Shown in pieces: positions 2,055-40,600 of a DNA stretch of 40,800 bases. The number at the start of each line of letters is the position of its first letter. Position 1 is the first letter of the stretch. The notes beneath the pieces were generated by a model. It saw only the letters and a list, made by a program, of their open reading frames with translations. It was not told the origin of the DNA and ran no database searches. The DNA is from a virus. The position numbers and the translations under genes are program-made. The stretch spans positions 1 through 40,800 of IMG/VR virus record IMGVR_UViG_3300008113_000152; one strand, 5' to 3'.

Positions 2055-4418
2055 TTATCGCATGCCTGCTAATCTTTTGATACTTTCTAATTCAGGAGTA
2101 GCATTTTCGATCGATTCTTGTTCGTTCGGAGATTGGGCTGCTTGTTTGACTGCATCTAAAAGATCTTGCATCTTTAACTTAGGGTTAACTAAAGCTTCAG
2201 GAACAATAGTTTGATCAATATATACTAAATCAGCATCGTCAAAATATACAGGTGCATTTTTATCTAACCCTGCTTCTTTACGCAACCACTTGGTAAGTTT
2301 TAGCTGGTCGCCAGTTTTTGCATACCATTTAGCGACGTTCCAGCCATGTACACTTCCTTCGACAACTGCCGCTTCTTGTTGGTGCATTCCTGATAATTCT
2401 TTAATTCGATCTAAATCTGGATTTACCGATGACTGTTGCTGCGGTGCTAATTTTTCTACTAAACGTCTTGCTAGACTTTCTGCTTGCTCACCAAACTTCT
2501 TGCCTACCATAGTACAGACGCCTTCTGGGCCTTTAGGGAATGTGCCTGACTCTTTGTCATAAAATGAATAAATGAATTGTGCTAATTCGTTTACATTTGA
2601 TTGTTTTTCTTCTAGTCCTTTTGATGTTTCAACGGATTCGTAGCGATCGTAATCATCATAGTCGCCGTCATCGGAACCATTTTCTGAAGCTTCTTCTTCA
2701 GCTTTTTCTTGTAGATAATTTTGATTATCGCCATCAAGATCATTAAAATCAATCTTTATTGATTTGCCATTACCAAACGCTGTGATTTCATTAATTTCAA
2801 CTTCTGGATATTCTGCAGGAGATCCGCCATGATATCCCCAAGTAGCAGGTAGATATTCACCGTGAACACTATAATCAATATCAACATTGATATATTCGAT
2901 ACCTTCTACTGGACTTTCTTCACCGTCTTCAATATAATCTGCGGTTTCTTCTGGAGAAGTAATTGCAGTAATATCTGTATCTCCTAACATAATTTTAGAA
3001 ATTACAGCCTTACCGTTTTCATCTCTTTCAAAGAAAACTTGTGTTTTTACTTCTAATTCGTAATCTCCCGAACTAGATGCTTCGGCAGTAATATCTTCAC
3101 GTTGTCCATATGCTACAGCATCTGCATCTGCTGCATCGTTAGCATATTGCATTGGATCTTCTACGTCCTCTTCGTCTTGAAAATCGCCAAAGTCTAATTC
3201 TTCTAGTATATCTGGAGCATTTTCTTCTAACCAATTTTTAACAAGACCCCTGACACAAGTATCGGGGTCTTGTTCTGCTGCCTCTTTAATTTGTGCAAAT
3301 AGTCTTGGATCTTCGATTATGCCTTCTAAACTTTTAATTGCATTTAACCCCTTTTCGCCTGCAGGAAAATGTTGTGTTGTTAGTTCGTTAAGTTCATTGA
3401 TTGCAATTTTTTTCTCATCTGGATCTTGACTTAAGATTCCACTGTCTTCACCAAGATACGCTACCCAACTTTCAAACTTGGCAAACGGATCAAGTAGATT
3501 CGAATCAAAATCTTCTTCTATTTCTAGTTCTTCATTACCTGTCATAGCAACTATGTCGTCATAGCCTATTTTGGACTCTTCCTTCATAAGTCTGTATAAA
3601 ATTGGAAACACAGACTTAATGTCCTCTTTGAAATTTTTGACAGTGAATTTTTCTGTAAAATCTTCTATAACATCCTGCGGCACTTCTAATGAATCTTGTA
3701 ATTGAAAATTTGTTTTAAATTGTTCGTAAAATGCTTGCTTTGATAATTTTGAAAGTTCTTCGCGTAGCCTGTTTAATGCATCTGAGCTTTTTTCGTAAAT
3801 TGAATTTGTATCAGAATTTAAAAGATCGTTTCTTACTACATAGTTTCCAAAGCCTTTAAGTTGAGCAATTTGCTCACTCATTCCTACAATATGCTTGCCA
3901 ATTTCATCGTACGGCACTCCGCCGTTAGCCACATGACGTTGCATAGCACGAGCACCTGCTAAATGGATGAACGGATATTTAAATCTTTCACCGTCTTGAT
4001 TTTCAACAAATAATGCTGAAATGTTTCTTGCTCTCGAACCAACTTGCTCATCTTGAATAGGTTTACTATGTTTAATGATTAACTTTGTATCCATTAAGTT
4101 TTGATAGCTAATTGTTCTCGAGCCATACAGGCTGCTTTCACTCATAATTGATTCTCCGACGGTCTTTGTTTGATTGTATTGACTTAAAAATGCAAAATCT
4201 CTTTGATCTAGATTGTCTTTAGCAACGTCTCTAGTATCAAAGGTTAGTAATCTACGCTTTGCAAATTGTCTTAATTCTCTTAAAAAATCGTACCATTTTT
4301 CTTTTTGTACGATATCCATATTTTCTGTAATACCATTGCTAAAGTATACTTTCATTGATCTTGGTTCAGCTCGAATTTTATAAAATAAATCTGTAGCAAT
4401 GCTTTTCATTGAGTCCAT
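2055..4418 (-). CDS. Large probable virion structural protein (787 aa)
   Basis: From memory, the N-terminal 220 residues resemble a large virion protein of marine T4-like phages: WYDFLRELRQFAKRRLLTFDTRD near 42-64 and FIHLAGARAMQRHVANGG near 150-167. Residues about 418-600 are very acidic, with runs of D and E, and enclose a beta-rich stretch (YELEVKTQVFF to IKIDFNDLDGD) that looks like an inserted domain. The C-terminus carries two copies of a short motif, IKELSGM (about 670) and IKRLAGM (the last residues). It follows gp17 by 16 bases and is the last gene before a strong terminator. ACTAAATA, one mismatch from the late-promoter octamer, lies 4 bases before the ATG. A start at Met4 is also possible. 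The exact role (head or neck surface) is unknown. Confidence 0.75.
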   Translation of the reverse strand: MDSMKSIATDLFYKIRAEPRSMKVYFSNGITENMDIVQKEKWYDFLRELRQFAKRRLLTFDTRDVAKDNLDQRDFAFLSQYNQTKTVGESIMSESSLYGSRTISYQNLMDTKLIIKHSKPIQDEQVGSRARNISALFVENQDGERFKYPFIHLAGARAMQRHVANGGVPYDEIGKHIVGMSEQIAQLKGFGNYVVRNDLLNSDTNSIYEKSSDALNRLREELSKLSKQAFYEQFKTNFQLQDSLEVPQDVIEDFTEKFTVKNFKEDIKSVFPILYRLMKEESKIGYDDIVAMTGNEELEIEEDFDSNLLDPFAKFESWVAYLGEDSGILSQDPDEKKIAINELNELTTQHFPAGEKGLNAIKSLEGIIEDPRLFAQIKEAAEQDPDTCVRGLVKNWLEENAPDILEELDFGDFQDEEDVEDPMQYANDAADADAVAYGQREDITAEASSSGDYELEVKTQVFFERDENGKAVISKIMLGDTDITAITSPEETADYIEDGEESPVEGIEYINVDIDYSVHGEYLPATWGYHGGSPAEYPEVEINEITAFGNGKSIKIDFNDLDGDNQNYLQEKAEEEASENGSDDGDYDDYDRYESVETSKGLEEKQSNVNELAQFIYSFYDKESGTFPKGPEGVCTMVGKKFGEQAESLARRLVEKLAPQQQSSVNPDLDRIKELSGMHQQEAAVVEGSVHGWNVAKWYAKTGDQLKLTKWLRKEAGLDKNAPVYFDDADLVYIDQTIVPEALVNPKLKMQDLLDAVKQAAQSPNEQESIENATPELESIKRLAGMR
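3241..3273. repeat. Perfect 10-bp inverted repeat inside the 787-residue gene
   Basis: ACAAGACCCC (3241-3250) and GGGGTCTTGT (3264-3273) are perfect inverted copies around a 13-base centre, in the middle of coding DNA. The stem is GC-richer than its surroundings. There is no long U-run on either strand, so it is not a standard terminator. Confidence 0.8.
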
Positions 4419-4434
4419 ATTATATTTAGTTAAT

Positions 4435-6024: not shown

Positions 6025-6038
6025 GGGGTCAATCCTTA

Positions 6039-6734
6039 TTACTGATTCTTATATTCTTGTAAACGAGCACGTAGATCATTTTTAATAGCTGCTAAAGGAT
6101 CTTCGCTCTCTGGCATAGCCATTGGATTATCGCCTTGTTTGTAACTGTGCTTAACCATTGTTTTTTCTTTGTTCATACCACCTGCTAGATGTTTAATGAT
6201 TCTTAAATGATCATCATATTTTTCATCTGGCTCGTTTTCGTATGCTTCATTTTCGTAAGGTGATGGATCTTTTACACGTAGATCTTTTGGATGTTTTGGA
6301 CCATTCATTCCGCCACCTGCATTAACTGTAATGTCGTCTATGTCTGCATATTGTTCATTAGGTTGGTTACTATAAGCTTCGCCCTTCTTAAGAGCAATGT
6401 CTGGCTGACTATCACCGTCGACATCAATATCTAATTTGTTATCATCGGTATCAATGTCATCTAACTCTGCATTATTCATTGCATCCGGTTTATTAATTTG
6501 TAGAGGAGCAACCATAGCATCTACTTTTGGTCCAGCTACATCTGGATTGACCTTAGAAATTAATTTCATTAGATTTGAAATATTATCCATTCCCTGAGCA
6601 TTTAAATTTACGCTCATACTAGGAGGTGGTTCGTTTGCCGGAGGTGTACTTGGCATTGCTGATGGCATTCCGCACTCCTCGCCAACCGGTTTATCTAAAT
6701 CTGCAATTTTTCTATATAATTCATTAAAGTTCAT
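6039..6734 (-). CDS. Acidic, disordered-looking 231-residue protein with an LAGGM motif
   Basis: I do not recognise a named family. The protein starts MNFNELYRKIADLDKPVGEE, continues with a proline-rich stretch (PPANEPPPSM) and then a highly acidic part (DDIDTDDNKLDIDVDGDSQPD) that resembles low-complexity or calcium-binding-like aspartate loops. It has IIKHLAGGM at about 179-187 and a short basic C-terminal helix (LRARLQEYKNQ). I chose the ATG at 6734 because GGGGAG is 5 bases upstream and the upstream gene stops one base away (TAATATG). A start 27 bases earlier would overlap that gene. The LAG motif is shared with the 787-residue protein, which suggests a common partner or processing event. 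It lies between the capsid-targeting-like protein and gp17. Confidence 0.7.
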   Translation of the reverse strand: MNFNELYRKIADLDKPVGEECGMPSAMPSTPPANEPPPSMSVNLNAQGMDNISNLMKLISKVNPDVAGPKVDAMVAPLQINKPDAMNNAELDDIDTDDNKLDIDVDGDSQPDIALKKGEAYSNQPNEQYADIDDITVNAGGGMNGPKHPKDLRVKDPSPYENEAYENEPDEKYDDHLRIIKHLAGGMNKEKTMVKHSYKQGDNPMAMPESEDPLAAIKNDLRARLQEYKNQ

Positions 6735-6735
6735 A

Positions 6736-7311
6736 TTAACTCCCCACGGCGCTTTTAGCACCGGCTTTATCTTCTTTAGCTTTGGGAGCTGATCCTAGAA
6801 CATCAGGTTTACCTTTGTCATGTCCCAATTCTTTTTTACGTGCTTTAGCTGTTTTCTCTAAATCTTTTAAGAATGATTTATTAAAATCATCACCAAAATA
6901 ATCTTTATGTTTAATCTTAGCAACTTCGCTATATGACGGGTCTGTTAACAAAGATTTACCAGATTCATCGCCAGCAACTGTTTGTTCCAATTCTTCAGTA
7001 GTGTATCTCACCAACACATATTCTTCTTTGATCAAATCACATGATTTAATAATGCTTGCAATTTCTGGAGGTGTAACAGGATATGCTGTTTCAACTTCAA
7101 ACATCGAAACTTCTATGTTTTCCAATTGCGGAAAATCAATAGCATTTTTCTGTATTGGAGTTTGAGCTGTTTTATCAAATCGTGTGCATCCAAATTTTTG
7201 GAGACGATCTTTAACTGTTGACTGAAAGCCCTCGGGCAGCTCACCCGCAACTTTGATCCTAAAGGACCACATTTTTTTGCTTTCAGCTAGATATTCTTTA
7301 AAAGTTTTCAT
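6736..7311 (-). CDS. Putative internal head protein with a capsid-targeting-like N-terminus (191 aa)
   Basis: The N-terminus MKTFKEYLAES closely matches the capsid-targeting peptide of T4 internal proteins I-III (MKTYQEFIAEA) and contains an L-x-E site of the kind cut by the T4 gp21 prohead protease. The middle (about 15-110) contains alternating strands and helices. The C-terminal third is lysine- and alanine-rich (KTAKARKKELGHDKGKP and the final SAPKAKEDKAGAKSAVGS), as expected of a DNA-contacting internal protein. A late-promoter octamer lies 5 bases before the ATG and no good ribosome site is present. The family is not one I can name. The internal-protein idea is inference from the N-terminus and composition. 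It ends one base before the next gene. Confidence 0.72.
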   Translation of the reverse strand: MKTFKEYLAESKKMWSFRIKVAGELPEGFQSTVKDRLQKFGCTRFDKTAQTPIQKNAIDFPQLENIEVSMFEVETAYPVTPPEIASIIKSCDLIKEEYVLVRYTTEELEQTVAGDESGKSLLTDPSYSEVAKIKHKDYFGDDFNKSFLKDLEKTAKARKKELGHDKGKPDVLGSAPKAKEDKAGAKSAVGS

Positions 7312-7316
7312 ACGTA

Positions 7317-7324
7317 TATTTATT
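7317..7324 (-). promoter_or_regulatory. Late promoter -10 element (AATAAATA) for the 191-residue gene
   Basis: AATAAATA on the minus strand matches the T4 late consensus TATAAATA in 7 of 8 bases. It contains the TAA stop of gp16 (7320-7322) and ends 5 bases before the ATG. If initiation occurs as at T4 late promoters, the first transcribed base would be the A of the start codon. Confidence 0.65.
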
Positions 7325-7796
7325 CCTTTTGGCTGAGTTTTTTCATCAGCTCATTTCTATCTGTAATAATAAATCCTTGTCCATTTAATACATCGTTTTC
7401 TGAACTTGGCGTATCTTTGTCTATTTTGTACTTTTTAAGCTGTAAATCAATAGCTTTTAATTTCTTTTCAACTTTATTAGATTTAGCAGTAATTGCGTGT
7501 CCTAACATACTACTAGCAACTTCAAAAATTCTACTAGCATATCGCACTTCTACATTCATGCCCAAATCCATTAAATCATCATATGCTTGTTCAGCTTTTT
7601 GAGCTAGATCGTCTAATTCTTTTTCATCAAGATTTTCTAATTCTTTAATTTCAGGTAATGATTTGGTTATTTCTTCAACTTCTTTATAGCTACGATCTAA
7701 ATCTTTTACCTGCTCGTGTTCGGCAGGTACTGATGAAACATATTTTTCATCTTTTTTTTCAGGTAAGTTAAAAAGGTCTTCAAGTTTTTTAGTCAT
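7320..7796 (-). CDS. gp16: Terminase small subunit gp16-like
   Basis: A 158-residue protein (T4 gp16: 164) that should recognise or present DNA to the gp17 motor. It is almost all helical: an acidic N-terminal part (KKLEDLFNLPEKKDE, then LPEIKELENLDEKELDDLA) and a central pair of helices (VRYASRIFEVASSMLGHAITAKSNKVEKKLKAIDLQLKKYK) forming the coiled coil typical of T4-type small terminases. The short N-terminal motif DLFNLPE matches marine T4-like gp16 proteins as I remember them. GATAAGTA, one mismatch from the late element, lies 5 bases before the ATG. It is encoded two genes upstream of gp17, which supports the call. No catalytic motif is expected. Confidence 0.75.
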   Translation of the reverse strand: MTKKLEDLFNLPEKKDEKYVSSVPAEHEQVKDLDRSYKEVEEITKSLPEIKELENLDEKELDDLAQKAEQAYDDLMDLGMNVEVRYASRIFEVASSMLGHAITAKSNKVEKKLKAIDLQLKKYKIDKDTPSSENDVLNGQGFIITDRNELMKKLSQKE

Positions 7797-7804
7797 ATCA
7801 ATAC

Positions 7805-8248
7805 TTATCTACGTTTTTTACCCTGATGGAAAATATCGCCTTCGTTTACTACTCTAAACTTGATACCTTTTTGTTTACACCAAGCAACGGCAGCTTCCCA
7901 CTTGGCTAAGTTTTTAACATATTGCGCTTGATTATATTGACTCTTACCAGTGTGTTCTCTTAGTGTTTGACTCTGGGGTTTTACTTCTACCACTTCTGCA
8001 TGTTTTTTTCCACTTTTATCAGTATACTGAACAAAAAAATCCGGAACATATATTGTATATTTTCCAGTTAATGGATCTCTATAAGGTATTTGTATACTTT
8101 CACTAGCCCAATGTTCAACTCCGGGATGTTCATCTAACATTTTCATAAAAACAAATTCCCAACTACTACGAGCTAGCGGAGTTTTCTTCCCGATGTATTT
8201 GTCGGGATTTTTCATTTCAAATTTACCTTGAGCAAATCTTGACGACAT
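7805..8248 (-). CDS. gp4: gp4-like head completion protein (TnsA/PD-(D/E)XK nuclease fold)
   Basis: A 147-residue homologue of T4 gp4 (150 residues), needed to complete DNA-filled heads before tail joining. The motif order of a PD-(D/E)XK nuclease is visible: Glu31 in SSWE, PDF with Asp70, and EVK at 88-90. The final part (WEAAVAWCKQKGIKFRVVNEGD) matches the C-terminal helix-strand of TnsA-like nucleases. The N-terminus (FEMKNPDKYIGKKTPLARSSWEF) is the conserved phage gp4 signature. The ATG is reached through a TAATATG junction with the upstream gene. In T4, gene 4 is far from 16/17, but here it is next to gp16, so head-finishing and packaging genes are clustered. Confidence 0.88.
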   Translation of the reverse strand: MSSRFAQGKFEMKNPDKYIGKKTPLARSSWEFVFMKMLDEHPGVEHWASESIQIPYRDPLTGKYTIYVPDFFVQYTDKSGKKHAEVVEVKPQSQTLREHTGKSQYNQAQYVKNLAKWEAAVAWCKQKGIKFRVVNEGDIFHQGKKRR

Positions 8249-8249
8249 A

Positions 8250-8618
8250 TTATGGTATTATATTTCTATTAACAGAGTCGTTAGTTACTTTTACTGCTCT
8301 ATAACCTAGAGTGGATGTTGCTGGTCTATTATTATTAATAATTTCTGCAACAATTGAACTTAACTGAAGATTGTTCAATCCTTTTAATGTATCTAATATT
8401 TCAAATACATTTACATTATCAATCTTAGCCTGTTTTAAAAGAACAGCCGATGTTAACGCGGCGGCATCGATATCAAATCCTTTTTCTTCAAAAAATGCCT
8501 GCGCTGCTCCAACTTCGTTGGCATTGAATTCTAAAGGTGCTCTTCCATAACTATCAAAAAATAATTTTGTTGCTTGACCAGTATCTGTATATTGTCTTGG
8601 TGGTAAATTAGTTGGCAT
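8250..8618 (-). CDS. Conserved-looking 122-residue phage protein, probable virion component
   Basis: No named function. The protein has an N-terminal linker (PPRQYTDTGQ), then FFDSYGRAPLEFNANEVGAAQAFFEEKGFD and a helical core ending VFEILDTLKGLNNLQLSSIVAEIINNNRP, followed by a short tail. I recall similar small proteins next to tail tube-like genes in marine T4-like phages, but cannot name them. AGGAG sits 6 bases before the ATG, and the start is one base after the stop of the tube-like gene (TAATATG). The same junction connects it to gp4, so the three genes look translationally coupled. Confidence 0.72.
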   Translation of the reverse strand: MPTNLPPRQYTDTGQATKLFFDSYGRAPLEFNANEVGAAQAFFEEKGFDIDAAALTSAVLLKQAKIDNVNVFEILDTLKGLNNLQLSSIVAEIINNNRPATSTLGYRAVKVTNDSVNRNIIP

Positions 8619-8619
8619 A

Positions 8620-9747
8620 TTATTCTCCTGATGGTGATGTCACAGGAGCTCCGGTAAATGCAGCAGTTGCAATGGTTCTTGGCGATGCTACTCCGTCGTT
8701 ATTTGATGGACTGGTTCCGGCATTTTTAGGAAATACTGTTCCAACAATACCTCCTACGGTATTAACGGCAGCATCAAATCCTCCGGGTGATGATAAAATA
8801 TTTGCAAATTCTGCTGCTAAACCTTCTTTAGTCAAATTACTTAGATTTTTTGCAGTATTAATTGCGGCAATAGCGGTATTTAAAAATCCGCCTTTTTTAG
8901 TAAAAATATTGCCTTTTGATACATCTCCAAATACTGATTCCATTCCTGATAAAACTCCGCCATCGCCAAACAAATTACTGACGCCACCGCCAGCAACACT
9001 TAACGGACTAGGTACCAAGTCATAGTATGCACCTTTGGCAAAACCATCTGGAACATCTTGAAATACTTGACCAGAACTATATTGAACAGCTTCATATGAA
9101 AGAGTCATTTGACTTTCTGCAGTTCCACTTTCTGCATAGGAAAGATTGCCGTGCGACCAATTTGTAATTCTTGGATTAATTAATGTATATCCGTTGTATC
9201 TTCGACGACTCATTGTATAAATTGAAATACTATTAAAAAAGGGAGAAAAATATCGATTATCCATTCCATAATTATAATTCTCCATGTCTTGAGCAGCAGG
9301 ACGATAATGATCAGTGGTATATGCAGCAGTCGGTGCTAATCTATCAGCAATATGGGTTCCGTAATATAATGCCCACATAGCATTAACAACACCAGTATTA
9401 TCATCGTGAAGAGTAATAGTTATAGGTTCATAGTTAATTTGTTTATATAAAATCTTTTTTCTATTATATTGATTTTTAATAACTTGATCAAAAGCATATT
9501 TTGGTAAATCTGCAGTTTTTACTAATAGACCTACTTCTCCGCTGTGTCTTTCATTAAATGAGGTCGCGCCAACTGCTTCATTACTAATATTAAATTGCAC
9601 AAAGAACATGAATTTTGTTCTTGGCGCCAATGCATAGTTATTATCAACAAAGATTCGAGTAGCATGCCTCCAGTTGGCCATGTTGCCTTTTGGATTTGTT
9701 GCTCCGTTAACAATACCATTTAAGAAACGTGTGAATTTATTTGCCAT
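8620..9747 (-). CDS. Second tail-tube-like virion protein (375 aa)
   Basis: A virion protein resembling a family I remember from marine T4-like phages. It begins MANKFTRFLNGIVNG, then has WRHATRIFVDNNYALAPRTKFMFFVQF, EVGLLVKTADLPKY, INYEPITITLHDDNTGVVNAMW and the late ITNWSHG...MTLSYEAVQY, a pattern also seen in T4-type tube proteins. Residues about 240-375 are glycine- and serine-rich and probably flexible. A baseplate or tube-initiator role like T4 gp54 is possible but unproven. A terminator and a late promoter separate it from gp19. The late octamer ends 5 bases from the ATG, and there is no ribosome site between them. Confidence 0.75.
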   Translation of the reverse strand: MANKFTRFLNGIVNGATNPKGNMANWRHATRIFVDNNYALAPRTKFMFFVQFNISNEAVGATSFNERHSGEVGLLVKTADLPKYAFDQVIKNQYNRKKILYKQINYEPITITLHDDNTGVVNAMWALYYGTHIADRLAPTAAYTTDHYRPAAQDMENYNYGMDNRYFSPFFNSISIYTMSRRRYNGYTLINPRITNWSHGNLSYAESGTAESQMTLSYEAVQYSSGQVFQDVPDGFAKGAYYDLVPSPLSVAGGGVSNLFGDGGVLSGMESVFGDVSKGNIFTKKGGFLNTAIAAINTAKNLSNLTKEGLAAEFANILSSPGGFDAAVNTVGGIVGTVFPKNAGTSPSNNDGVASPRTIATAAFTGAPVTSPSGE

Positions 9748-9752
9748 ACATT

Positions 9753-9760
9753 TATTTATT
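9753..9760 (-). promoter_or_regulatory. Late promoter -10 element (AATAAATA) for the tube-like gene
   Basis: AATAAATA on the minus strand lies 5 bases before the ATG at 9747 and 5 bases after the gp19 terminator stem. The predicted +1 is at or beside the A of the ATG. Confidence 0.7.
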
Positions 9761-9765
9761 GAATA

Positions 9766-9795
9766 AAAAAGCCCAGAAGTTGCTCTGGGCTTTTT
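9766..9795. terminator. Strong bidirectional-looking terminator after gp19
   Basis: A perfect 12-base-pair stem (AAAAAGCCCAGA with TCTGGGCTTTTT) has a 6-base loop. Both arms carry A/T runs, so it can work on either strand. In context it ends minus-strand transcripts of gp18-gp19 just before a new late promoter. Confidence 0.92.
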
Positions 9796-9814
9796 ATTAT
9801 TGCTACAGTCTTAA

Positions 9815-10468
9815 TTAACCAACTGTTGCTGAACCACCGCCAGTACTTCCAGCGCCAGCAGCAACACGCTGACCAATTGCACGACCAATACCGTCGATCT
9901 GACCGCCTTTGTATTGTACGGCATTATCAAATCTAATAGTTAATGCTACTGTTGCAGGTTCGTTAGTTCCGTAATTCATCTCGCCGTAATCTGCGTTTTG
10001 AATAAAGCAACCGTATACTTCAAAAGTTTCTAAAGTAGTTGGAGCACTTGCACCATTGCCGCCATCTAAGATTTCAATCTTAGTTGTAAACTTATAGTCA
10101 ATACCAGAACGTGCTGCGGCTTGCTCCATAAAGTCAAATTGTTTCTGAATTTGCTCGCCAACTAGACGTTGAACGTTGCCACTAGCATCATCTCTTAAAG
10201 TTAATGTCATTGTTTCCCAAGTATACTTTCCTGCTAGATAAACTTTAGAATTGTATACAGGAATTTCCATTTCTTCAAAACTAACTTTTGGTCTGGTAAT
10301 GTCCATTACCTGCTTGGTCAGTTCTGTTGAAATAGAACCAGTTGCACCAAATCCTTGTAGTATCACTCTAAAGCGATACTTGAGTTTTGGCATTAACAGA
10401 CCTTGCGTAGAGCTAGATTGATTACTAGCTAACGGTACTGTGTATTTGTTTAATGAGGTAATTGCCAT
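9815..10468 (-). CDS. gp19: Tail tube protein gp19
   Basis: A 217-residue T4 gp19-type tail tube protein (T4: 163), which polymerises as hexamer rings inside the sheath. Core strands include LKYRFRVILQGF, KVSFEEMEIPVYNSKVYLAGKYTWETMTLTLRDDASG and VYGCFIQNADYGEMNYG, the last followed by VALTIRFDNAVQY. This is the usual tube order, with the LTLRDD turn and the final IRFDNA strand. The C-terminus is a glycine/alanine/serine tail not present in T4. It begins 3 bases after the gp18 stop, with GGGGAG upstream, so it is co-transcribed with gp18, and a strong terminator follows. Confidence 0.93.
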   Translation of the reverse strand: MAITSLNKYTVPLASNQSSSTQGLLMPKLKYRFRVILQGFGATGSISTELTKQVMDITRPKVSFEEMEIPVYNSKVYLAGKYTWETMTLTLRDDASGNVQRLVGEQIQKQFDFMEQAAARSGIDYKFTTKIEILDGGNGASAPTTLETFEVYGCFIQNADYGEMNYGTNEPATVALTIRFDNAVQYKGGQIDGIGRAIGQRVAAGAGSTGGGSATVG

Positions 10469-10471
10469 TTA

Positions 10472-13400
10472 TTAAATCTCCCCTGTATTTTTGATACGTA
10501 ATGGAATGTAGATAAACTCAATGGCCTTCACTGGTTCGATTGCAATATCTACATAAAGCTCATTTCTATCAATTCTAGTTGGAGTGTTATTAGATTCATC
10601 ACACACAACTGCGAAGTCATAGATTGCTCTTAAACCTACTAGTTCAAGTAATAGACTGTCACATGCTTGTTTGATTTCATCACGAGTAATTTTATCGTTT
10701 GGTTCAAACACGTACGGGCGAGCCAATTTACTTAATTGACTACGTAGGTAAACTACTAAACGTGCTACATTAATTCTATCTAATGCACTTGCATTTCTTG
10801 CACGAGTTTTTTGACCATATGCAACATGCCCAACGCCGTTAAAGAACGCGATTGGATTTACTTTAATATCATATAATGTATCTCGCTGTCCTTCGTTTAA
10901 TGCTACTTGTTGGAATTCTCCAGTTGATCTATCAATATAACCAACTGCTGTTGCATTTGTAATACCGCCACGTCTTGTACCAGCTGGTGCAAACCATGGA
11001 TAACTTACTTGATCACTTAAAGCAATTGTACGTAACATCATGTGACTTGCTGGTACCACTGCGTTCACACCGCTTAGATCTGTAGTGAATCCGTTTGGAT
11101 ACCAAACTGCACTGTATTCATCGTAGCTTACTAGTCCCTTATCACCGTTGTCTAATGCACCGTTAGCATTAGTTCCCCAGTTGGTTAAACTAGTTGAATC
11201 TGCTGTTAGTCTTAGTGGACTATCCCCAAGAACAAATGATGTTACACCGCGATCAAGATTTAAATTAACTAGATTGCTTAATAGCTCAGGATACCCCGGA
11301 CAAGCAATTAAATTAAAGTTACGACGCTCTTCGTCGCGAATTTCTTGACTTGTATCGACAGCAGCTTTAAGTGCCTGTACAACTACTTGACGCTGAGCAA
11401 TGCGTCCAAAAGTTCCACTACCGTCTTCTTGATTACCACTTGCAGTTACCCAACGATCAGTTGCGTAAGCAGCCATAGATTGACCTAGATAACGTGTGTT
11501 GTCTTTAGTTGTATCGATATAATTATTTCTGTATTTTTTAACGTTGCCACTGCTACGTCTTGTGTTGTATAACAAAATACTTCTTGGATAGTTTGCTGGA
11601 TCTGGAGCATCTGGATCAACAAAATCATTTGTTAACAATGTCACAATACTTGCTGCTACGTTTCCTGTAGCACCGCTTGAACCGTAACGTGCATCAGCAA
11701 ACACAACACCCTCTTCTGATTGATCATCAGTTTTATCTACTAATACCCATTCCTTAGTATTATTATTATATCTGTAGATAGTTGGGAAGTTTTCAGCATC
11801 TGCTGTACTAATCCATAAATCATTGTCTACTAATGCAGTGCCGTCACTTTGTGTTGTTGGTTTTGAAGCTGCAACAATTGGACCTGCTGGGTCAGTATTT
11901 GGAAATACTGTTTTGTAACCTTTCCATGATGTACCGTTATGTGTCATAATGTCTACATCGCTGAAACTAGGATTAAACCATAGTTGTCCGTCAGCTGGCT
12001 CGTTTAACGGCGCAGATCTCTTAGATTTAAAATCATTCGATGCGTTAAACAATGGTAACCAGTTACTTGCTAAGAAAGTACCACCGGTACCAATACCAAC
12101 TAAAGAATATAAATTAGCTGTACCTGTTAATGCCGATTGGTTAAATGCTGTAAAGATTTTACCCAATGGAACATTCGTTCCGTCGGTGAATCTAATATCT
12201 CCACCTGTTTTGTGGACAATTACAACTTCATTTGCACTGGTTACACTTGCTTCAACCTGTGTTAATCCTAAAGCATTAATTGCAGTAGCGATTCTGTCAG
12301 AATCAGAAGCACCCGCGGTTGCTGTAAATGTTACAGTTTTTGCTGTGTCAAGAGCTAACTGACCTTTTACCATTTCTCGAATAGTAAAAGTATTTGTTCC
12401 AGCTATAAATGTATTTGCTGCAACAGGAGCAGATACTACTCTAGTTTGTCCAGCAACTTTTCTTTTCCATACACGGAAAGTTGCTGTCTGTGGAGTGTTA
12501 TCGTATCCAAAATCTTCTGTTGAATTATATTGAATAAATGCTGTATCGACCGGAATATTTGTGCCACCGCCTGTTCTATCTAAATTAAAAATAGCTGCAT
12601 GTGTTGTTGCATATAATGGAGATTCTTTAGCAGTCCATAGACTTGTACCGCTGCTCCATTGTTTTAATCTCCAACGAGATCCAATATTTGGTTCTGTTGT
12701 TTTGATCCATACACTACCGCTTGGTCGTGGATTTGTGTCGTCTGATCTAAATTCAGGAACCTGTGTATGTGGACTCATTTGTAACTGTGGACCGTAGTAG
12801 GTACCAGCAGTAAGTCCAACGTCTGTTAAGATTGTTCCAGAATTTCCGCCGCCACTGGCAATAATAATTGCATTTGATCTAGCAGAATCGCCAACATTAT
12901 CGTCGTTAGTAGCATCTGTGTATAGATATACTCTATCAAAGCTTTTTGCTGCGGTTACGCCGTTGATGTTAAGTGCATTAATTGCTGTTACTAAAGATGT
13001 TGCATCAGTGCCAGTAGCTGTTACAGTTACACCGTTAATTAAAAATGTTTGTCCAGCTGTAATTGATGGGCTTGTTACTGTACTTTTTACTGTAGCATGA
13101 CTAGCAGCCCATGCAGTAGAACCAACTAGTACCCAAGCATCGCCACCTAATAAAGTGGTATCTCTCTTATAAAAAATCTTTACAGATTCTTTATCAACAG
13201 TGTAGGTCTCATTCATTTCTGCAACTACAGCATAGTCGCCCGGAACTCCAACACTTGATTTTGGAGCACGACCATATGAACCACTATTTTCAAGATTAAC
13301 GTTATCATCTGATGTTAACACAATTGGAGTCTTTGATGCAAATTTCTGACCGCCTGTTGTGCTGGCTGCGTTTCCATTCCATTCAAAAATACCCCATGCG

Positions 13401-13828
13401 GTGTTGGCAGTATCTAACCACCAGTCACCATTGTCAGGGTTCGCTCCCGGGGCTGTTGTGCTTCCAGCAAGCTGAGTTAAATCAATGTCTGCTCTTACAA
13501 TAAAAGCAGCATTGGATACACCTAATAAGCTGTACGCTGATAAAAGACCGTATTCGTTTCTTTCAGATCCATGTACTGGTGTTCCACTTACTGTTTTTTC
13601 AAAGAAAGGAACCCCATAGTTATCAACTAAGTCTCTTTGACTGGTAATTTTAAATGCTTTACCTGCATTTGCTTTTGTGGTCGCTACGGCTGTGCCTGTG
13701 CCTGCGCCATTTGTTTTATTCTGTCCGGTAGCCACTACTATTAGTGGAACTGTACCTGGCTCTGCTGGCGTATAGAAACTTTCGTCAATGACGGTTACTG
13801 ATGCGCCTGGTGAATTTAATGTTGCCAT
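10472..13828 (-). CDS. gp18: Tail sheath protein gp18 (enlarged, 1118 aa)
   Basis: The contractile sheath subunit. The N-terminus (LNSPGASVTVIDES, then DLVDNYGVPFFEK and LLSAYSLLGVSNAAFIVRA) and the C-terminus (TRARNASALDRINVARLVVYLRSQL, then VVCDESNNTPTRIDRNELYVDIAIEPVKAIEFI) match T4 gp18. The whole is 1118 residues against 659 in T4. The extra mass lies between about 130 and 730 and contains repeated beta modules with phrases such as GDWWLDTANTAWGIFEW, SGSVWIKT, GQLWFNPS and DNDLWIST, so an enlarged surface domain set is likely. A late octamer at 13862-13869 and GGGAG before the ATG precede it. It starts the gp18-gp19 operon. Confidence 0.95.
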   Translation of the reverse strand: MATLNSPGASVTVIDESFYTPAEPGTVPLIVVATGQNKTNGAGTGTAVATTKANAGKAFKITSQRDLVDNYGVPFFEKTVSGTPVHGSERNEYGLLSAYSLLGVSNAAFIVRADIDLTQLAGSTTAPGANPDNGDWWLDTANTAWGIFEWNGNAASTTGGQKFASKTPIVLTSDDNVNLENSGSYGRAPKSSVGVPGDYAVVAEMNETYTVDKESVKIFYKRDTTLLGGDAWVLVGSTAWAASHATVKSTVTSPSITAGQTFLINGVTVTATGTDATSLVTAINALNINGVTAAKSFDRVYLYTDATNDDNVGDSARSNAIIIASGGGNSGTILTDVGLTAGTYYGPQLQMSPHTQVPEFRSDDTNPRPSGSVWIKTTEPNIGSRWRLKQWSSGTSLWTAKESPLYATTHAAIFNLDRTGGGTNIPVDTAFIQYNSTEDFGYDNTPQTATFRVWKRKVAGQTRVVSAPVAANTFIAGTNTFTIREMVKGQLALDTAKTVTFTATAGASDSDRIATAINALGLTQVEASVTSANEVVIVHKTGGDIRFTDGTNVPLGKIFTAFNQSALTGTANLYSLVGIGTGGTFLASNWLPLFNASNDFKSKRSAPLNEPADGQLWFNPSFSDVDIMTHNGTSWKGYKTVFPNTDPAGPIVAASKPTTQSDGTALVDNDLWISTADAENFPTIYRYNNNTKEWVLVDKTDDQSEEGVVFADARYGSSGATGNVAASIVTLLTNDFVDPDAPDPANYPRSILLYNTRRSSGNVKKYRNNYIDTTKDNTRYLGQSMAAYATDRWVTASGNQEDGSGTFGRIAQRQVVVQALKAAVDTSQEIRDEERRNFNLIACPGYPELLSNLVNLNLDRGVTSFVLGDSPLRLTADSTSLTNWGTNANGALDNGDKGLVSYDEYSAVWYPNGFTTDLSGVNAVVPASHMMLRTIALSDQVSYPWFAPAGTRRGGITNATAVGYIDRSTGEFQQVALNEGQRDTLYDIKVNPIAFFNGVGHVAYGQKTRARNASALDRINVARLVVYLRSQLSKLARPYVFEPNDKITRDEIKQACDSLLLELVGLRAIYDFAVVCDESNNTPTRIDRNELYVDIAIEPVKAIEFIYIPLRIKNTGEI

Positions 13829-13861
13829 CTGATAAATCTCCCGGTATTAAATACTCTAATA

Positions 13862-13869
13862 TATTTATT
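13862..13869 (-). promoter_or_regulatory. Late promoter -10 element (AATAAATA) for gp18-gp19
   Basis: AATAAATA on the minus strand, 33 bases before the gp18 ATG, leaves room for a short leader with the GGGAG ribosome site. It is the conventional spacing, unlike the near-leaderless cases in this window. Confidence 0.75.
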
Positions 13870-13920
13870 GCCATTTTGAAAAAACGGTAGCTTACAACCA
13901 GAAGAAAAGGGGCCAAAAAG

Positions 13921-13928
13921 GGTAAATA
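13921..13928 (+). promoter_or_regulatory. Possible late promoter (GGTAAATA) for the HNH gene
   Basis: GGTAAATA lies 5 bases before the HNH ATG and matches NATAAATA except for one base. The identical octamer precedes gp14. No ribosome site follows it. Confidence 0.4.
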
Positions 13929-13933
13929 TTTTT

Positions 13934-14266
13934 ATGAGACCCTTATGTAAGTGTGGTTTACGGCCCGCAGCAGTTAATTACCATAAAAATGGTAAAACTT
14001 ACTATAGAAGTAAGTGTGAAACCTGTCTTTACGGCAATGATGATGTTATACCAAAATGGTATAGAGCGGGATATAAAAAATTATCCAAGTGTGATAAATG
14101 TGGTTACACCAGTAAACATCCAGAACAGTTTGATGTTTATCATATAGACGAAAATTTAAACAATTGTCGGCCAAATAATCTTAAGACTGTATGTGCAAAC
14201 TGTCAGAGAGTCCTACATAAAGAGGGCGTTCGTTGGCGTCAGGGGGATCTTGTACCAGATTTCTAA
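13934..14266 (+). CDS. HNH endonuclease, probable homing-type mobile gene
   Basis: A 110-residue zinc-finger HNH protein. Cys pairs appear at C5-C7, C28-C31, C53-C56 and C87-C90, giving probably two zinc ribbons. The HNH core is His70 (in DVYHID), Asn82 in RPNNL and His95 (in CQRVLH). Free-standing HNH genes of this kind are common as selfish homing elements in T4-like phages. The gene is on the plus strand among minus-strand genes, and its last 86 bases overlap the end of the kinase gene in antisense. There is no good ribosome site. A GGTAAATA late-type element sits 5 bases before the ATG. It may cut a site in a related phage lacking it, but the target cannot be deduced. Confidence 0.82.
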   Translation: MRPLCKCGLRPAAVNYHKNGKTYYRSKCETCLYGNDDVIPKWYRAGYKKLSKCDKCGYTSKHPEQFDVYHIDENLNNCRPNNLKTVCANCQRVLHKEGVRWRQGDLVPDF

Positions 14267-14879
14267 TTTTACTATATAATTCATCAATAGTAGAATCATT
14301 ATCCAATTCGTGATCAAACTTAGTACCGACCCAAGCAGTTTCACTAGCATGAATTCTCGCTTTTTCTAAATTATGCTTGCTGGTTGCCCAAGACATATTA
14401 CCTGTCTCGCCCCGATTTGCATTCAATGCCCATTCGTACCATTCAGGTAATGCGCCACGTTTTACCCATACAATAATACCACCGGCATCTCGTATAGATT
14501 TAATTTCATTAGGAAAACGACAATCTGAAATTACCACCGAATCTTTAGAGTTTCTAAGTTTATTTTCTAAACTTGCAATCCAAATATCATCGTGGAAGCC
14601 TTTACGGCATACTTCTGTGCCCCAATACTGTAGTACCCAGCGAGGAGTGAGTGTGGGTATGTTAAGGCGTTCTGACCACCAAGGATCTACCTGTTCTCGC
14701 CATTCACGAGCGGCTTTTGTACGCCCTTCCAATAACGTACGGTCCCAGCCGAATACCGAGGATACTGCGTCTTTTAGTGTAGATGCAAAACTTTCTCGTC
14801 TAAAGCCATGAAAGTTTACTAGATAGTCTGCAACAGTATCTTTACCGCTGCCAATAAAACCGCAGATTCCTATAATCAT
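14181..14879 (-). CDS. gp1: Deoxynucleoside monophosphate kinase (T4 gp1-like)
   Basis: A 232-residue P-loop kinase (T4 gp1: 241) that phosphorylates dNMPs to dNDPs for phage DNA synthesis. The P-loop GFIGSGKDT lies at 7-15. LQYWGTEVCRKGFHDDIW (about 93-110) and VVISDCRFPNEIKSIRDAGGIIVWVKR (about 124-150) are the NMP-binding and Walker B-like parts. STIDELYSKIRNLV (about 195-208) is the usual C-terminal helix. The last 25 or so residues are read antisense to the HNH gene and look unlike a folded domain, so the native end may have been replaced. TAGGAG is 5 bases before the ATG. GATAAATT, one mismatch from the late octamer, is 25 bases upstream. Confidence 0.88.
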   Translation of the reverse strand: MIIGICGFIGSGKDTVADYLVNFHGFRRESFASTLKDAVSSVFGWDRTLLEGRTKAAREWREQVDPWWSERLNIPTLTPRWVLQYWGTEVCRKGFHDDIWIASLENKLRNSKDSVVISDCRFPNEIKSIRDAGGIIVWVKRGALPEWYEWALNANRGETGNMSWATSKHNLEKARIHASETAWVGTKFDHELDNDSTIDELYSKIRNLVQDPPDANERPLYVGLSDSLHIQS

Positions 14880-14924
14880 AATATCTCCTAGACTAGAGTA
14901 TTATAATTTATCTAGAGTAAAAAA

Positions 14925-15683
14925 TCAACCAATAATAAATGTATAGCCGTGACCGCCAGGAACTAATTTCATCAAATCATCAACTAGTTTATCCATTTCA
15001 GTCTGAGCTTCTGTTTTTAATGTAGTGCCATTAAGACTAGTTCCGCCAGCTGGGCCGGCAATTTGTGCAAATTTTTCTCTGGCTTGACCTAGTATCATTT
15101 TACAGTTAGCCAAACTATAATCTTTAATCCACTGACTAGCATAGGTATCGTTGATTATTGAACTATCGGGCCTAGTATTATAACACCAAAGCATAAGCTC
15201 TTCGTTATTTCTAGGTCGTTGTTGTAATACTAGTTTTCTACTTTGAGGAATCCAATGAAAGTTCATAAATGCACCAAACATTCTTCCGACCATTTCTTGA
15301 TACCCAGCAAACAGTTCATAGGTAGCTAGTCCGCCCATATTAGTAGATGATAACAAGTATGTATTTGTATAGGCTAAATTGAACGGTTCAAATACAGTGC
15401 CACCCCCGCCGCCACCCGATCTAGAACCAACCGATCGTCTAAATATTTGACGAACTTGTTGTATTTCTTTGGGTAATATATATTCGTTTTGATCAATTTC
15501 TGTAGTTAAAAATATCATACTTTCTTCTACAGCATTGTCGCTACGTTGGCGAAAAGTTGCTAGGGCTCTGTTTAATGCTGTTTCGTAATGTATAGGATCT
15601 AGTTCTACGTCGATCATGCCATCGCCCAGCATGGCTTTGCAGTAGTCGTAAACAGCTTGTCTTTCAGGATTAATTTGGCTCAT
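14925..15683 (-). CDS. gp13: Neck protein gp13
   Basis: A 252-residue homologue of T4 gp13 (309 residues), which with gp14 forms the head-tail connector neck. The C-terminal pattern SQWIKDYSLANCKMILGQAREKF...GG.SLNGTTLKTEAQTEMDKLVDDL...G aligns with the T4 gp13 end, which has the same W-x-KDY...LNG/DG...EA spacing and a final G. The N-terminal part (MLGDGMIDVELDPIHYETALNRALATFRQRSDNAVEES) fits the LG-x-P-x-I-x-VELTPDQ region of T4. A glycine run (SRSGGGGGG) occurs at about 93-100. A late octamer ends 4 bases before the ATG and there is no ribosome site. In T4, gene 14 follows 13 on the same strand, but here gp14 is divergent. Confidence 0.87.
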   Translation of the reverse strand: MSQINPERQAVYDYCKAMLGDGMIDVELDPIHYETALNRALATFRQRSDNAVEESMIFLTTEIDQNEYILPKEIQQVRQIFRRSVGSRSGGGGGGTVFEPFNLAYTNTYLLSSTNMGGLATYELFAGYQEMVGRMFGAFMNFHWIPQSRKLVLQQRPRNNEELMLWCYNTRPDSSIINDTYASQWIKDYSLANCKMILGQAREKFAQIAGPAGGTSLNGTTLKTEAQTEMDKLVDDLMKLVPGGHGYTFIIG

Positions 15684-15687
15684 ACAG

Positions 15688-15695
15688 TATTTATC
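15688..15695 (-). promoter_or_regulatory. Late promoter -10 element (GATAAATA) for gp13
   Basis: GATAAATA on the minus strand ends 4 bases before the gp13 ATG. It is back to back with the plus-strand element at 15702-15709, with only 6 bases between them. Confidence 0.7.
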
Positions 15696-15701
15696 GGTAG
15701 C

Positions 15702-15709
15702 GGTAAATA
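15702..15709 (+). promoter_or_regulatory. Probable late promoter (GGTAAATA) for gp14-gp15
   Basis: GGTAAATA, one mismatch from NATAAATA, ends 7 bases before the gp14 ATG at 15717. It forms a divergent pair with the gp13 element. No other promoter is visible for the plus-strand island. Confidence 0.6.
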
Positions 15710-15716
15710 TAGTACT

Positions 15717-16919
15717 ATGCCAAGACTTTCACTTTATCGTCCTGAAAAAGGCAACGATTACAAATTTATAGATAAAAATATTTGGGAAATGTTCCAGGTG
15801 GGCGGTACTGACGTTTTAATACACAAATACGTAGGACCAAAATCAACATCTGCGCTGGAAAATACTCCTACCACCCCAGAATATCAGGGAAGTCCAGCCG
15901 AAACACAAATACAAGATCTGCTATTTTTAGAAAATAGAGATCGCAAATATGATCCAGATGTTTATATTTTACGTGGTGTTTATAACATACAGGATTTAGA
16001 TTTTAATCTAAGTCAATTTGGATTGTTTTTACAAAATGATACAATTTTTATAACTTTTCATATAAATGATACTGTTGAAAAAATTGGTAGAAAATTAATC
16101 AGTGGGGATGTTATAGAACTTCCTCATTTAAAAGATGATTTTGCATTAAACGATTTAAATTTTGCATTGAAAAGATTTTACGTTATAGAAGATGTTACTC
16201 GTGCAGCAGAAGGGTTTAGTGCAACATGGTATCCGCATTTATATCGTGCTAAGTGCAAACCTCTAGTCGATAGTCAAGAATTTAAAGATATTTTAGATGG
16301 CGTTGCGGGCGAAGGTACAAATCAAACACTGCGAGATGTTATGAGTACCTACGAACGAGAAATGCAAATTACTCAGGCAGTATTAGATCAAGCAGAAGCT
16401 GATGCGCCGCTGAGTGGTTACAATACCAGTGCATTTTATACTGTTCAAGTAAACGAAGAAGGTAAACCAGAATTAGTAACTGTTGATACCGCTCAGGTTG
16501 CGGCTTCAAACAGTCAAATTGATATCAGTATGGTATTACAGACTGCTGATAGATTAGGATATGACGGTTATCTATTAGGTCAGGATTCCGCGCCCAACGG
16601 TTCCCCATTTACCAGCGGTTTAGCATTTCCAGTTAATGCACAAGAGGGTCAATATCATCTTAGAACAGATTACACTCCTAAGAGATTATTTAGATATAAT
16701 GGAAAATATTGGGTGAGAGTTGAAGACGTGGCTAGAACAACAATGAGCAATATTGGACCTACAGATACACAATCCGGAGATCGTTTTGAAGGTTATAATG
16801 TTAGAAATACACAAAAAGCCAGTTTTATTAATAATACAAACACTGATAATATCAATGGAAAAACCGTTGATGAAAAACAAAGCTTAAGTAAAGCACTACG
16901 ACCAAAGGCAGATAACTAA
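15717..16919 (+). CDS. gp14: Neck protein gp14
   Basis: A 400-residue homologue of T4 gp14 (256 residues), the second neck protein needed to close the head and accept the tail. The diagnostic stretch is AETQIQDLLFLENRDRKYDPDVYILRGVY, then DFNLSQFGLFLQNDTIFITFHINDTVEKIGRKLISGDVIELPHLKDD, matching the order of MRG...FF-x-NFG-x-Q...EGDLIYFP in T4. The C-terminal 170 residues are an extension with AQEGQYHLRTDYTPKRLFRYNGKYWVRVED, a module common in marine T4-like gp14. I chose MPRLSLYRPEKG at 15717. A start at 15657 would read 20 residues antisense through the gp13 start. It overlaps gp15 by one base (TAATG). Confidence 0.88.
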   Translation: MPRLSLYRPEKGNDYKFIDKNIWEMFQVGGTDVLIHKYVGPKSTSALENTPTTPEYQGSPAETQIQDLLFLENRDRKYDPDVYILRGVYNIQDLDFNLSQFGLFLQNDTIFITFHINDTVEKIGRKLISGDVIELPHLKDDFALNDLNFALKRFYVIEDVTRAAEGFSATWYPHLYRAKCKPLVDSQEFKDILDGVAGEGTNQTLRDVMSTYEREMQITQAVLDQAEADAPLSGYNTSAFYTVQVNEEGKPELVTVDTAQVAASNSQIDISMVLQTADRLGYDGYLLGQDSAPNGSPFTSGLAFPVNAQEGQYHLRTDYTPKRLFRYNGKYWVRVEDVARTTMSNIGPTDTQSGDRFEGYNVRNTQKASFINNTNTDNINGKTVDEKQSLSKALRPKADN

Positions 16920-25867: not shown

Positions 25868-25875
25868 TATTTATC
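25868..25875 (-). promoter_or_regulatory. Late promoter -10 element (GATAAATA) for the 355- and 1918-residue genes
   Basis: GATAAATA on the minus strand, 18 bases before the ATG at 25849, lies directly after the terminator stem of the 2471-residue gene. A conventional ribosome site follows. Confidence 0.75.
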
Positions 25876-33339: not shown

Positions 33340-33358
33340 TTATTTCTATCCTTTTTAA

Positions 33359-33366
33359 TATTTATC
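33359..33366 (-). promoter_or_regulatory. Late promoter -10 element (GATAAATA) overlapping the stop of the 1114-residue gene
   Basis: GATAAATA, 19 bases before the ATG at 33339, contains the TAA stop (33362-33364) of the upstream gene. It should drive the 2471-residue gene separately in addition to read-through. Confidence 0.7.
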
Positions 33367-36300
33367 CGCCTAACGCAATGGCGTAAGCGATCGAGTTAAC
33401 GTTTGTTTGCGTATTGTTTGTATCAACATACGATTTAACTGCTGCCTCTGTTGGAACTGCTGAATTTGAATTTCCGCTTAGTGTGGTGTCTGATGAAAAT
33501 TCGTTAACCAATTCACCTAACTGAGCTCCAATACTACCTAATCTTAAACTGGTCAAACCGCTTAGATCGAATGCACTTGCATTTAACGTTGCTTTACCAG
33601 TTGCTTGATCGACTTTAAAGTATTCACCAACTCTGAAATTACCATCTTGGTCTGTTGTAACATAATAAACACGACCCGGATATGTTTCAATAACTTCATT
33701 TACTTGTGATGCTGCTTGTGAAGGAACACCTGGGTAATTAGTAGTACTAATGCCACCGGTACCAACACTTAAAAAGTCGTGACCTGTTAGTCTGACTGTA
33801 CTAAATCTGTATCTTAGAGTAACTGCGGTAGTATCTGCGCTTGCTGTTAATTTTTCTGTTGTTAAAATTACCAACGCATAACCTGCAGGTTTATAACCAC
33901 TACCACCTGCTGAATAATCAGCAACCGTTTGAATAATATATGGTTGAGAATCGCCGGCAATTGTAATACTGCCACCTGGTCTAGGTTCAGAACTAAATCC
34001 AGATAATGCTAATACAAATCCTTTCTGTCCTGTTACACCGCCGGTGGCAATAACTGCGCTTACTCCAGAACCATTTGAAACAGTTTCGCCTGCTTGGAAT
34101 GTATTAGATACTGCTTTATAATAAATTCTGCTAACACCCTCTTGCGAACTCAATACCGTTCCAGTGGCTCCTGATACACTACCAGTAATTGTCTGCCCTG
34201 GACTAAACGAACCGCCAACGATACTTTGATATGTAATTAGTCCGCCATGCAATACACCAGTCACCGGAGTTTCAAATGTATCAAATCCTTCTGATGCTGA
34301 TCCATAAGTTCCGTAACTATTATTACCGTTTAATGCACGAATTTGACCACCGTCTGATGAAGCATATCCAAACACACAATAATAAGTGAACACAGAAACT
34401 AGTTCTGCTTTAGCTGCATGTCTGGTCCAGACTCCAACACCCCCATCGTTGATACATGTAAAGTTACTTAGGACCATTGATTTATTGCCGGTATTATGAA
34501 CTCCGCCGTCAATTAACGCACCAATGCCTGCGGTAGAAAATGTAGTAACATCCTGAATATATGGACTCTTAGTAGTTACAGGACTGTCAGGATTTAGTGC
34601 AAAGAATACACCGCCTCTAGTCGCTGCTTCAATACTAGTTGGTGTTCCGCCACTTATTGCAAACCCGTTCATGCCTGTACAATTTAGATCTTTTACCATC
34701 GAAGCATTACTCATTAAGAACATAGTTGTTCTACTGTTCAATGTTGATCCGTCTGTACTAGTTCCTGCGGCTGCTGTTACAGTAGTAGTTCTTACACCGT
34801 CGCCAACGATTGAAACGCTAGCCGGTACTACAATAGGTAGTTGTTCTGTATAAGTTCCGCTCTTAACATAAATTGTTGCGGGTCCAGTGACTTGTGTGCA
34901 GGCATATCTAATAGATGCAAATGCACGATTCAGTGTTCTGCCGTTATTACTATTACTACCTTCGGGAGTGACATAATAGACATTTGCTGTTTGATTATTA
35001 TTTTCGTATCCAGGAATTCCAGCTGCACTGGCTACCAAAATTTGACCATTAGTACCAATTGGTAATCTTGCTACTGAGCCAGCCGAGTTTCTAAAATAAG
35101 TATCGCCCGTGGTTGTTAAAACAGGACCTAAGTCACCTGTTTGAGCAACTAGCTGCCACGAACCGGGCGACGAAACTGGATCGTTTCCAATATTATCACT
35201 AACAATAGAAATATACGAACTCTGTAAGTATGAAACAACATCATCTAAATCATATTCAGTGCCGGCACTCCAAGTGCCCATCCATTTCATACCAGAACTT
35301 AATAGTTCCCAGTATGTAGCATTTGGTGGTTCAATATTGGTTGCGTTATCTGATGTGTGCGCTAGGATACAAAGATAAACACGACCACCGTATCTAACAG
35401 CTTCGCCTGGTTTGTAAGCTGTAGCGTTTGCGTAATTTCCCACAAACGATAAACCGTCGACAAATTTTGTCCAATATGTGGCATTTGTCGGAACTTGGTT
35501 TGTTGCTGTTAAAATATTAACATATACATGTCCGCCGTATTTTACTAAATCTCCTGGAACATACGGATGTGCTGGAGCTCCTGTCCATATTCCTCTAAAC
35601 TGGAATCCTTTGGCAAATAAATCCCATTTGGTATTATCTGATGGTTCTTGATTAATTGCTACATCAACTTTGGCTGCATAGATACTACCACCATAATCAA
35701 CTAATTCACCTGGTTTATAAGTACCGGCAGTACTGTAAGTACCAACGTAAGTATAACCTTTAACTAGTACATCCCAATAGGTTGCATTAGTTGGAAGATT
35801 TCCTGTAGTGGTTTGTTTTGCAATATATTGGTATCCGCCGTATTGAACAACTTCCCCAATATTATAAGTTGTTCCGCCGGCATAAGTGCCGCTAAATTTA
35901 GAGCCAGTATTAAGCGTATCCCAGAAAGTTGCATTACTTGGAGCATTGCCTGTGGTATCTTGTTTGGCAACGAACGTATGTGCTCCAAAACTAACAATAT
36001 CACCTTTTCTATATGCAGTCCCTCCTGCGTAAGCACCTCTAAATTGAACACCGGTTGTGATTGCAGTCCAGTATACTGGATCAGTTGGCAAATTCCCTAA
36101 TGTGGTCTGTACTGCTACATATGAGTTTGAACCGTATGTTACAACGTCACCTGGTTGATATGAAGTGCCTCCAGCATATGCTCCTTCAAATTGTAGACCA
36201 GACGCAAATAATGTGAACTTAGCTACATCAAATGTTGATGTACTAGTGTGATGTAAATTACAGATGTATAACTGTCCGCCATAACTAACAACATCGTTAA

Positions 36301-36727: not shown

Positions 36728-36735
36728 TATTTATT
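36728..36735 (-). promoter_or_regulatory. Late promoter -10 element (AATAAATA) overlapping the stop of the 124-residue gene
   Basis: AATAAATA, 21 bases before the ATG at 36706, contains the TAA stop at 36731-36733. It is followed by a conventional CGAGG ribosome site. Confidence 0.72.
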
Positions 36736-40592: not shown

Positions 40593-40600
40593 TATTTATT
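40593..40600 (-). promoter_or_regulatory. Late promoter -10 element (AATAAATA) for the 497-residue gene
   Basis: AATAAATA on the minus strand, 17 bases before the ATG, with AAAGGA between, has the conventional spacing. The previous gene stops at 40618. Confidence 0.75.

Follow-up and report, generated by a model that had tools for sequence, protein, structure and literature searches.

The window analysed here, a 40,800-nucleotide (nt) stretch of the IMG/VR virus record IMGVR_UViG_3300008113_000152, carries T4-type late promoter octamers that end only 4–7 nt before the start codons of several virion genes, and gp55-type late transcription very probably makes leaderless mRNAs, or mRNAs with leaders of 1–3 nt, from such short-spaced promoters. 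In the proposed mechanism, the host RNA polymerase with the phage gp55-type sigma factor would read these promoters, and transcription would start on the A of the AUG or within about 3 bases of it. The neck, capsid-like, 191-amino-acid (aa), tube-like and 787-aa genes, and in relatives the terminase gene, would be expressed from leaderless or near-leaderless mRNAs, and ribosomes would bind the 5′-terminal AUG without a Shine-Dalgarno (SD) sequence; the recognition of 5′-terminal AUGs is reviewed in PMC9031893. A second late class in the same phage, including sheath, tail and fibre genes, has the octamer 14–40 nt upstream together with an SD.

At four genes, NATAAATA, or a form mismatched at its second base only, ends 5, 5, 4 and 7 nt before the ATG, and the gap lacks an SD. 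The octamer AATAAATA at 7317..7324 (− strand) lies 5 nt before ATG 7311 of the 191-aa gene (MKTFKEYLAE..., 6736..7311, −; predicted leaderless), whose orthologue in Pseudomonas phage PA5oct is a structural protein detected by mass spectrometry. The same octamer, AATAAATA, occurs at 9753..9760 (−), 5 nt before ATG 9747 of the 375-aa tail-tube-like gene (8620..9747, −; phrog_4542), which is likewise predicted to be leaderless. The remaining two are arranged back to back: GATAAATA at 15688..15695 (−) is located 4 nt before ATG 15683 of the gene for the 252-aa neck protein (head-tail adaptor Ad2; 14925..15683, −; phrog_211; predicted leaderless), and the variant GGTAAATA at 15702..15709 (+) is located 7 nt before ATG 15717 of a 400-aa virion structural (head), capsid-like gene (15717..16919, +; phrog_11591), for which a leader of 0–3 nt is predicted. 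The coordinates, strands, spacings and SD-free gaps given for these four octamers by a preceding sequence-only reading of the window were all reproduced. Its label gp13/gp14 for the 191-aa gene was unsupported: this gene has no match in PHROG, Pfam or NCBIfam, and the neck protein is encoded by the 252-aa gene.

Three weaker cases also stand as that reading described them. One is the weak octamer ACTAAATA at 4423..4430 (−), 4 nt before ATG 4418 of the 787-aa virion structural gene (2055..4418, −; phrog_13484; predicted leaderless). Another is the weak variant GATAAGTA at 7802..7809 (−), 5 nt before ATG 7796 of the 158-aa small-terminase-like (gp16-like) gene (7320..7796, −; phrog_445, a weak match); it overlaps the stop of the upstream gene and, as the least certain case, marks a possible leaderless start. 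The last, examined in the window, is GGTAAATA at 13921..13928 (+), 5 nt before ATG 13934 of an HNH gene (13934-14266, +), which lies with this octamer of its own on the opposite strand between the sheath and dNMP kinase genes. Every named gene starts with ATG, as do the aligned families. The octamer at 7317-7324 includes the stop codon (TAA) of the gene at 7320-7796, an overlap retained across relatives.

The octamer–ATG spacing in relatives had been posed beforehand as a refuting test, and it was found to be conserved while the spacer sequence changes. For the neck gene, 80 loci, mostly with 70–83% protein identity, were compared: NATAAATA ends exactly 5 nt before the ATG in 77 of them and CTAAATA takes its place in one more (78/80), and the spacers themselves vary (ACAGT, CTCGT, CTAGC, CTTAT and others), their last base being T in 54, C in 12 and a purine in none. 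For the 191-aa gene, NNTAAATA was located 5 nt from an in-frame ATG in all 33 distinct upstream sequences (48–100% protein identity), including three in which the ATG is duplicated. As the tube-like gene of the window matched only 100%-identical copies, the homologue of a relative (G003, below) was used as the query; the octamer lies 4–5 nt from the ATG in 24/24 distinct upstreams. At the terminase gene it lies 4–6 nt from the ATG in 36 of the 38 distinct upstreams. Among the 76 capsid-like loci with an MPRLSLY start, a count that leaves out locus L020 with its different neighbour gene, the spacing is 7 nt in 63, 8 nt in 8 and 5 nt in 5. The 787-aa gene of the window matched few loci as a query; where the window has the weak ACTAAATA, the three related phages G002, G003 and G004 have GATAAATA at exactly 5 nt. 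The octamer of the 158-aa gp16-like gene is found at 4 nt in G002 and G003, and an SD stands in its place in G004.

These comparisons can be extended to whole contigs. The window belongs to a jumbo T4-like phage, and at the points sampled along its length its minus strand matches a 209,836-base IMG/VR contig (G001, L083). Together with G001, the contigs of three related jumbo T4-like phages, G002 (280 kb), G003 (353 kb) and G004 (78 kb), were examined by one fixed counting procedure, in which each octamer was assigned to the nearest ATG, the only start codon counted by design, of open reading frames (ORFs) of at least 50 aa, and 20 other words of five A and two T served as controls. T4, Syn9, CBB, PA5oct and Atu_ph07 were taken as comparison genomes. 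Over G001–G004, 41 octamers are located 4–8 nt from an ATG, against a control-word mean of about 4.4 (0.2–1.7 on average per contig), an enrichment of about ninefold, while none is located at 9–13 nt, against about 4.0 for the control words. The counts at 4–8, 9–13 and 14–33 nt are 7/0/16 in G001, 11/0/18 in G002, 19/0/21 in G003 and 4/0/5 in G004. The corresponding counts are 0/2/24 in T4, 0/0/12 in Syn9, 0/0/18 in CBB, 2/0/27 in PA5oct and 2/0/37 in Atu_ph07, and the two sites each in the last two phages are not above control. Short spacing as a general T4-like property was therefore rejected, and the short class marks the G001–G004 group rather than T4-like phages at large. In the window, ATAAATA is rarer than expected (9 sites versus 21 ± 4.9), and every site precedes a gene start and lies on the minus strand, which is the coding strand for the main block of genes.

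The two architectural classes of late genes that had been proposed are real: they occupy 4–8 and 14–40 nt with the empty zone between them, and they differ in the SD. An SD-like word was found in 2 of the 41 short-spaced genes versus 50 of the 62 genes of the 14–40-nt class in G001–G004. The base before the ATG is T or C in 33/41 of the short class, and in 20/21 of those at exactly 5 nt; a bacterial transcription start usually looks like a pyrimidine followed by A. The genes earlier chosen for comparison in the window have, as claimed, an octamer 17–33 nt upstream and a visible SD. Their octamers, all on the minus strand, are located at 13862..13869 (gp18 sheath gene; 33 nt before ATG 13828, and 31–33 nt with an SD in relatives), 25868..25875 (18 nt before ATG 25849), 33359..33366 (19 nt before ATG 33339), 36728..36735 (21 nt before ATG 36706) and 40593..40600 (17 nt before ATG 40575).

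The room available for a leader is limited at several of the short-spaced genes. A bidirectional intrinsic terminator at 9766..9795 (−17.5 kcal/mol, z −3.55) is located between gp19 (9815-10468) and the tube-like gene, and its hairpin ends 18 nt before the ATG. In the relatives, a hairpin with a U-run ends 18–19 nt before the ATG of the tube-like gene in 24/24 distinct upstreams, with different stem sequences. The same arrangement was found in 36/38 of the terminase upstreams, and across both sets the hairpin ends 16–19 nt before the ATG. Judging from these alignments, the tube-like and terminase genes share a conserved module of predicted terminator, octamer and ATG. It is replaced by an SD in the two remaining terminase upstreams, one of which belongs to the phage of the window: the region 6025-6070 upstream of its terminase ATG 6024 has an SD and no terminator–octamer module, unlike most of the loci L442–L521. 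At the neck and capsid-like genes, the ATGs face apart, and only 33 nt separate them in the window (15684-15716) and 24–45 nt in relatives. This gap has no room for a conventional SD leader, unless the transcripts begin within the adjacent gene. At the 24-nt extreme the two octamers overlap (TATTTATAAATA), as was noted upstream of the neck gene at L001, L023, L024 and L029.

The same gene can be found in both states. In sister clades (44 distinct upstreams), the neck gene has its octamer 16–28 nt upstream, mostly with an SD (GGAGA) or AAGAGA; a few octamers are at 5 or 8 nt, and none is at 9–15 nt. In some of these clades, the divergent capsid-like gene still has GATAAATA close to its ATG, at 5 nt in 14 of 18 loci and at 7 nt in the other 4. 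The neck and capsid-like orthologues of PA5oct, Atu_ph07 and CBB have the octamer 19–32 nt upstream with an SD, and the PA5oct orthologue of the 191-aa gene has it 25 nt upstream, also with an SD. Because several outlying lineages have the leadered form, we infer that the short octamer–ATG spacing is probably the derived state.

As to the mechanism, the first base of the T4 late octamer is at −13, where A(−13) is named as a variant (PMC2988020). Since the octamer thus ends at −6, a 5-nt spacer would place +1 on the A of the AUG, which fits the earlier proposal that +1 falls on or next to this A; it is from this numbering that we infer the 5′ ends of the transcripts. With a spacing of 4 nt, the start could shift by one base to the A, and with 7–8 nt a leader of 2–3 nt would be expected. 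The (N/T)ATAAATA octamer is present upstream of virion genes, as in T4-type late promoters, and G001 encodes a homologue of the gp55-type late sigma factor (ORF L090:570-1424; phrog_12791, E 4.7e-83; phrog_234, E 1.6e-24).

Several observations weigh against the proposed mechanism. A phmmer search with the T4 proteins for homologues of gp45 and gp33 matched only Syn9; a profile search for the gp45 family PF02916 gave no match anywhere, controls included, and is therefore uninformative. The neck gene of the window has a spacing of 4 nt and the capsid-like gene one of 7 nt, so that some of the genes may not be strictly leaderless. At the 191-aa and gp16-like genes, the octamer runs into the end of the gene before it; coding constraint could thus account for some of its conservation, and transcripts reading through from upstream could cover these two genes as well. 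Moreover, the 191-aa gene has AAAAGGA, a GGA-type SD at a poor distance, 12–13 nt from its ATG and immediately before the octamer, where it makes up the last codons of the preceding gene; a distant GGA is also found in many relatives.

One alternative is that the octamers are promoters but that translation proceeds mainly from longer read-through mRNAs, to which the ATG-proximal promoter adds little. The AAAAGGA and the same-strand series containing the 191-aa, 787-aa and gp16-like genes agree with this explanation, and these three genes may also be read from polycistronic messages. It is nevertheless unlikely: terminators directly precede the octamers in 24/24 tube-like and 36/38 terminase upstreams, the divergent neck and capsid-like genes are separated by only 33 nt in the window, and the SD is absent in 39 of the 41 short-spaced genes. 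Since the start codons are predictions from sequence, it may also be asked whether the true ones lie further downstream, in which case the promoters would give ordinary leaders. The protein alignments, however, begin at the predicted ATG even in distant relatives (MKTFKEYL, MPRLSLYRP, MSQIDQ), and variation at the N-terminus of the neck gene is highest at the third codon positions directly after that ATG. The N-terminal conservation led us to reject wrong start codons, which we consider highly improbable.

An equally improbable explanation is that the AT-rich sequence beside the ATG acts not as a promoter but as an A/U-rich element that binds the ribosome or S1 within a longer leader. Although A/U-rich leaders can help initiation, such an element would not be expected to keep the exact register described above, with 9–13 nt empty and a pyrimidine at −1, nor to move to 16–28 nt together with an SD, as the octamer does in the sister clades; terminators immediately upstream and the lack of enrichment of control AT words also speak against it. 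Finally, at a GC content of 37.6% in the window, composition alone makes words like ATAAATA common. Chance matches are nonetheless hardly conceivable for a word that is depleted overall, enriched close to the ATG and conserved in dozens of distinct loci, and they were rejected by the control words and by dinucleotide shuffles. Initiation at or within a few bases of the AUG from gp55-type late promoters thus remains the preferred explanation.

Leaderless phage messages and T4-type late octamers are each known, and their combination was not found described in the open-access literature. No paper on leaderless late genes in T4-like phages was found there; as the search covered open-access literature only, this absence is no proof of novelty. 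The nearest literature match, phage AR9, has leaders of 26–491 nt. The Thermus phage phiYS40 belongs to another phage family and has promoters other than those of the present phages. As cited in PMC3594737, it resembles them as a lytic phage with leaderless mRNAs; its host differs, being a member of Thermus, a genus from a phylum with many leaderless genes (PMC12340547). In Deinococcus-Thermus, a −10 element about 6–7 bp before the start codon abuts the ORF and coexists with an SD class (PMC12340547), much as the octamer does here, but those are bacterial housekeeping-type promoters and the present ones belong to a phage late sigma system. The T4 late promoters (TATAAATA, gp55/gp33/gp45; PMC2988020) share the octamer, the lack of a reported −35 box, the gp55 homologue and the placement upstream of virion genes; they differ in that the octamer is at least 12 nt from the start codon, usually with an SD after it, and never at 4–8 nt. 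Late NATAAATA promoters are also known in the T4-like cyanophages S-PM2 and Syn9 (PMC2984593), which share the degenerate octamer, although Syn9 has all of its 12 sites at 14–33 nt and none in the short class.

Textbook T4 late transcription yields leadered, SD-driven messages. If the proposed expression mode is true, a widespread aquatic T4-like group runs two modes of translation initiation at once and uses the SD-free one for a number of head, neck, tube-like and packaging genes. Orthologues in both states would then provide a natural experiment on the change from leadered to leaderless messages, and the octamer–ATG rule would help to fix the start codons of unannotated late genes in metagenomic jumbo phages. 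More tentatively, and with less than even confidence, we suggest that, in this jumbo T4-related clade, a second class of expression has arisen that dispenses with the SD and serves head, neck and packaging genes. It would consist of insulated units of terminator, late octamer and AUG, and of promoters placed back to back (gaps down to 24 nt), with all signals within about 20 nt, and would involve a late switch to 5′-AUG initiation, possibly aided by phage translation factors (IF1 and bS21 in one relative).

Among translation factors, bS21 is encoded in G003 (33352-33510) and G002 (15466-15624), and G003 also has an IF1 homologue (L117:6599-6817), whose identities of 49–59% are mostly to Zetaproteobacteria and Nitrospira and permit no host call. 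IF3 is encoded by Atu_ph07 and CBB, both without an enriched short class, a sample too small for a link to leaderless translation. By terminase and sheath, the closest isolates are PA5oct-like phages, Sinorhizobium phage Phosso and Agrobacterium phage Atu_ph07, and the window matches the PA5oct gene order of neck (Ad2), dNMP kinase, sheath, tube, tube-like, head closure and terminase genes. In PA5oct itself (NC_071039), a cultured phage, the gene for the structural protein gp262, which was detected by mass spectrometry, has TATAAATA at 144985, separated from the annotated ATG by the 5-nt spacer CGTGT, whereas the neck gene of PA5oct has its octamer 32 nt upstream with an SD. One further octamer of the window, at 39063-39070 and absent from the earlier list, is located about 100 nt before ATG 38962 and marks a putative long-leader late gene unlike the rest.

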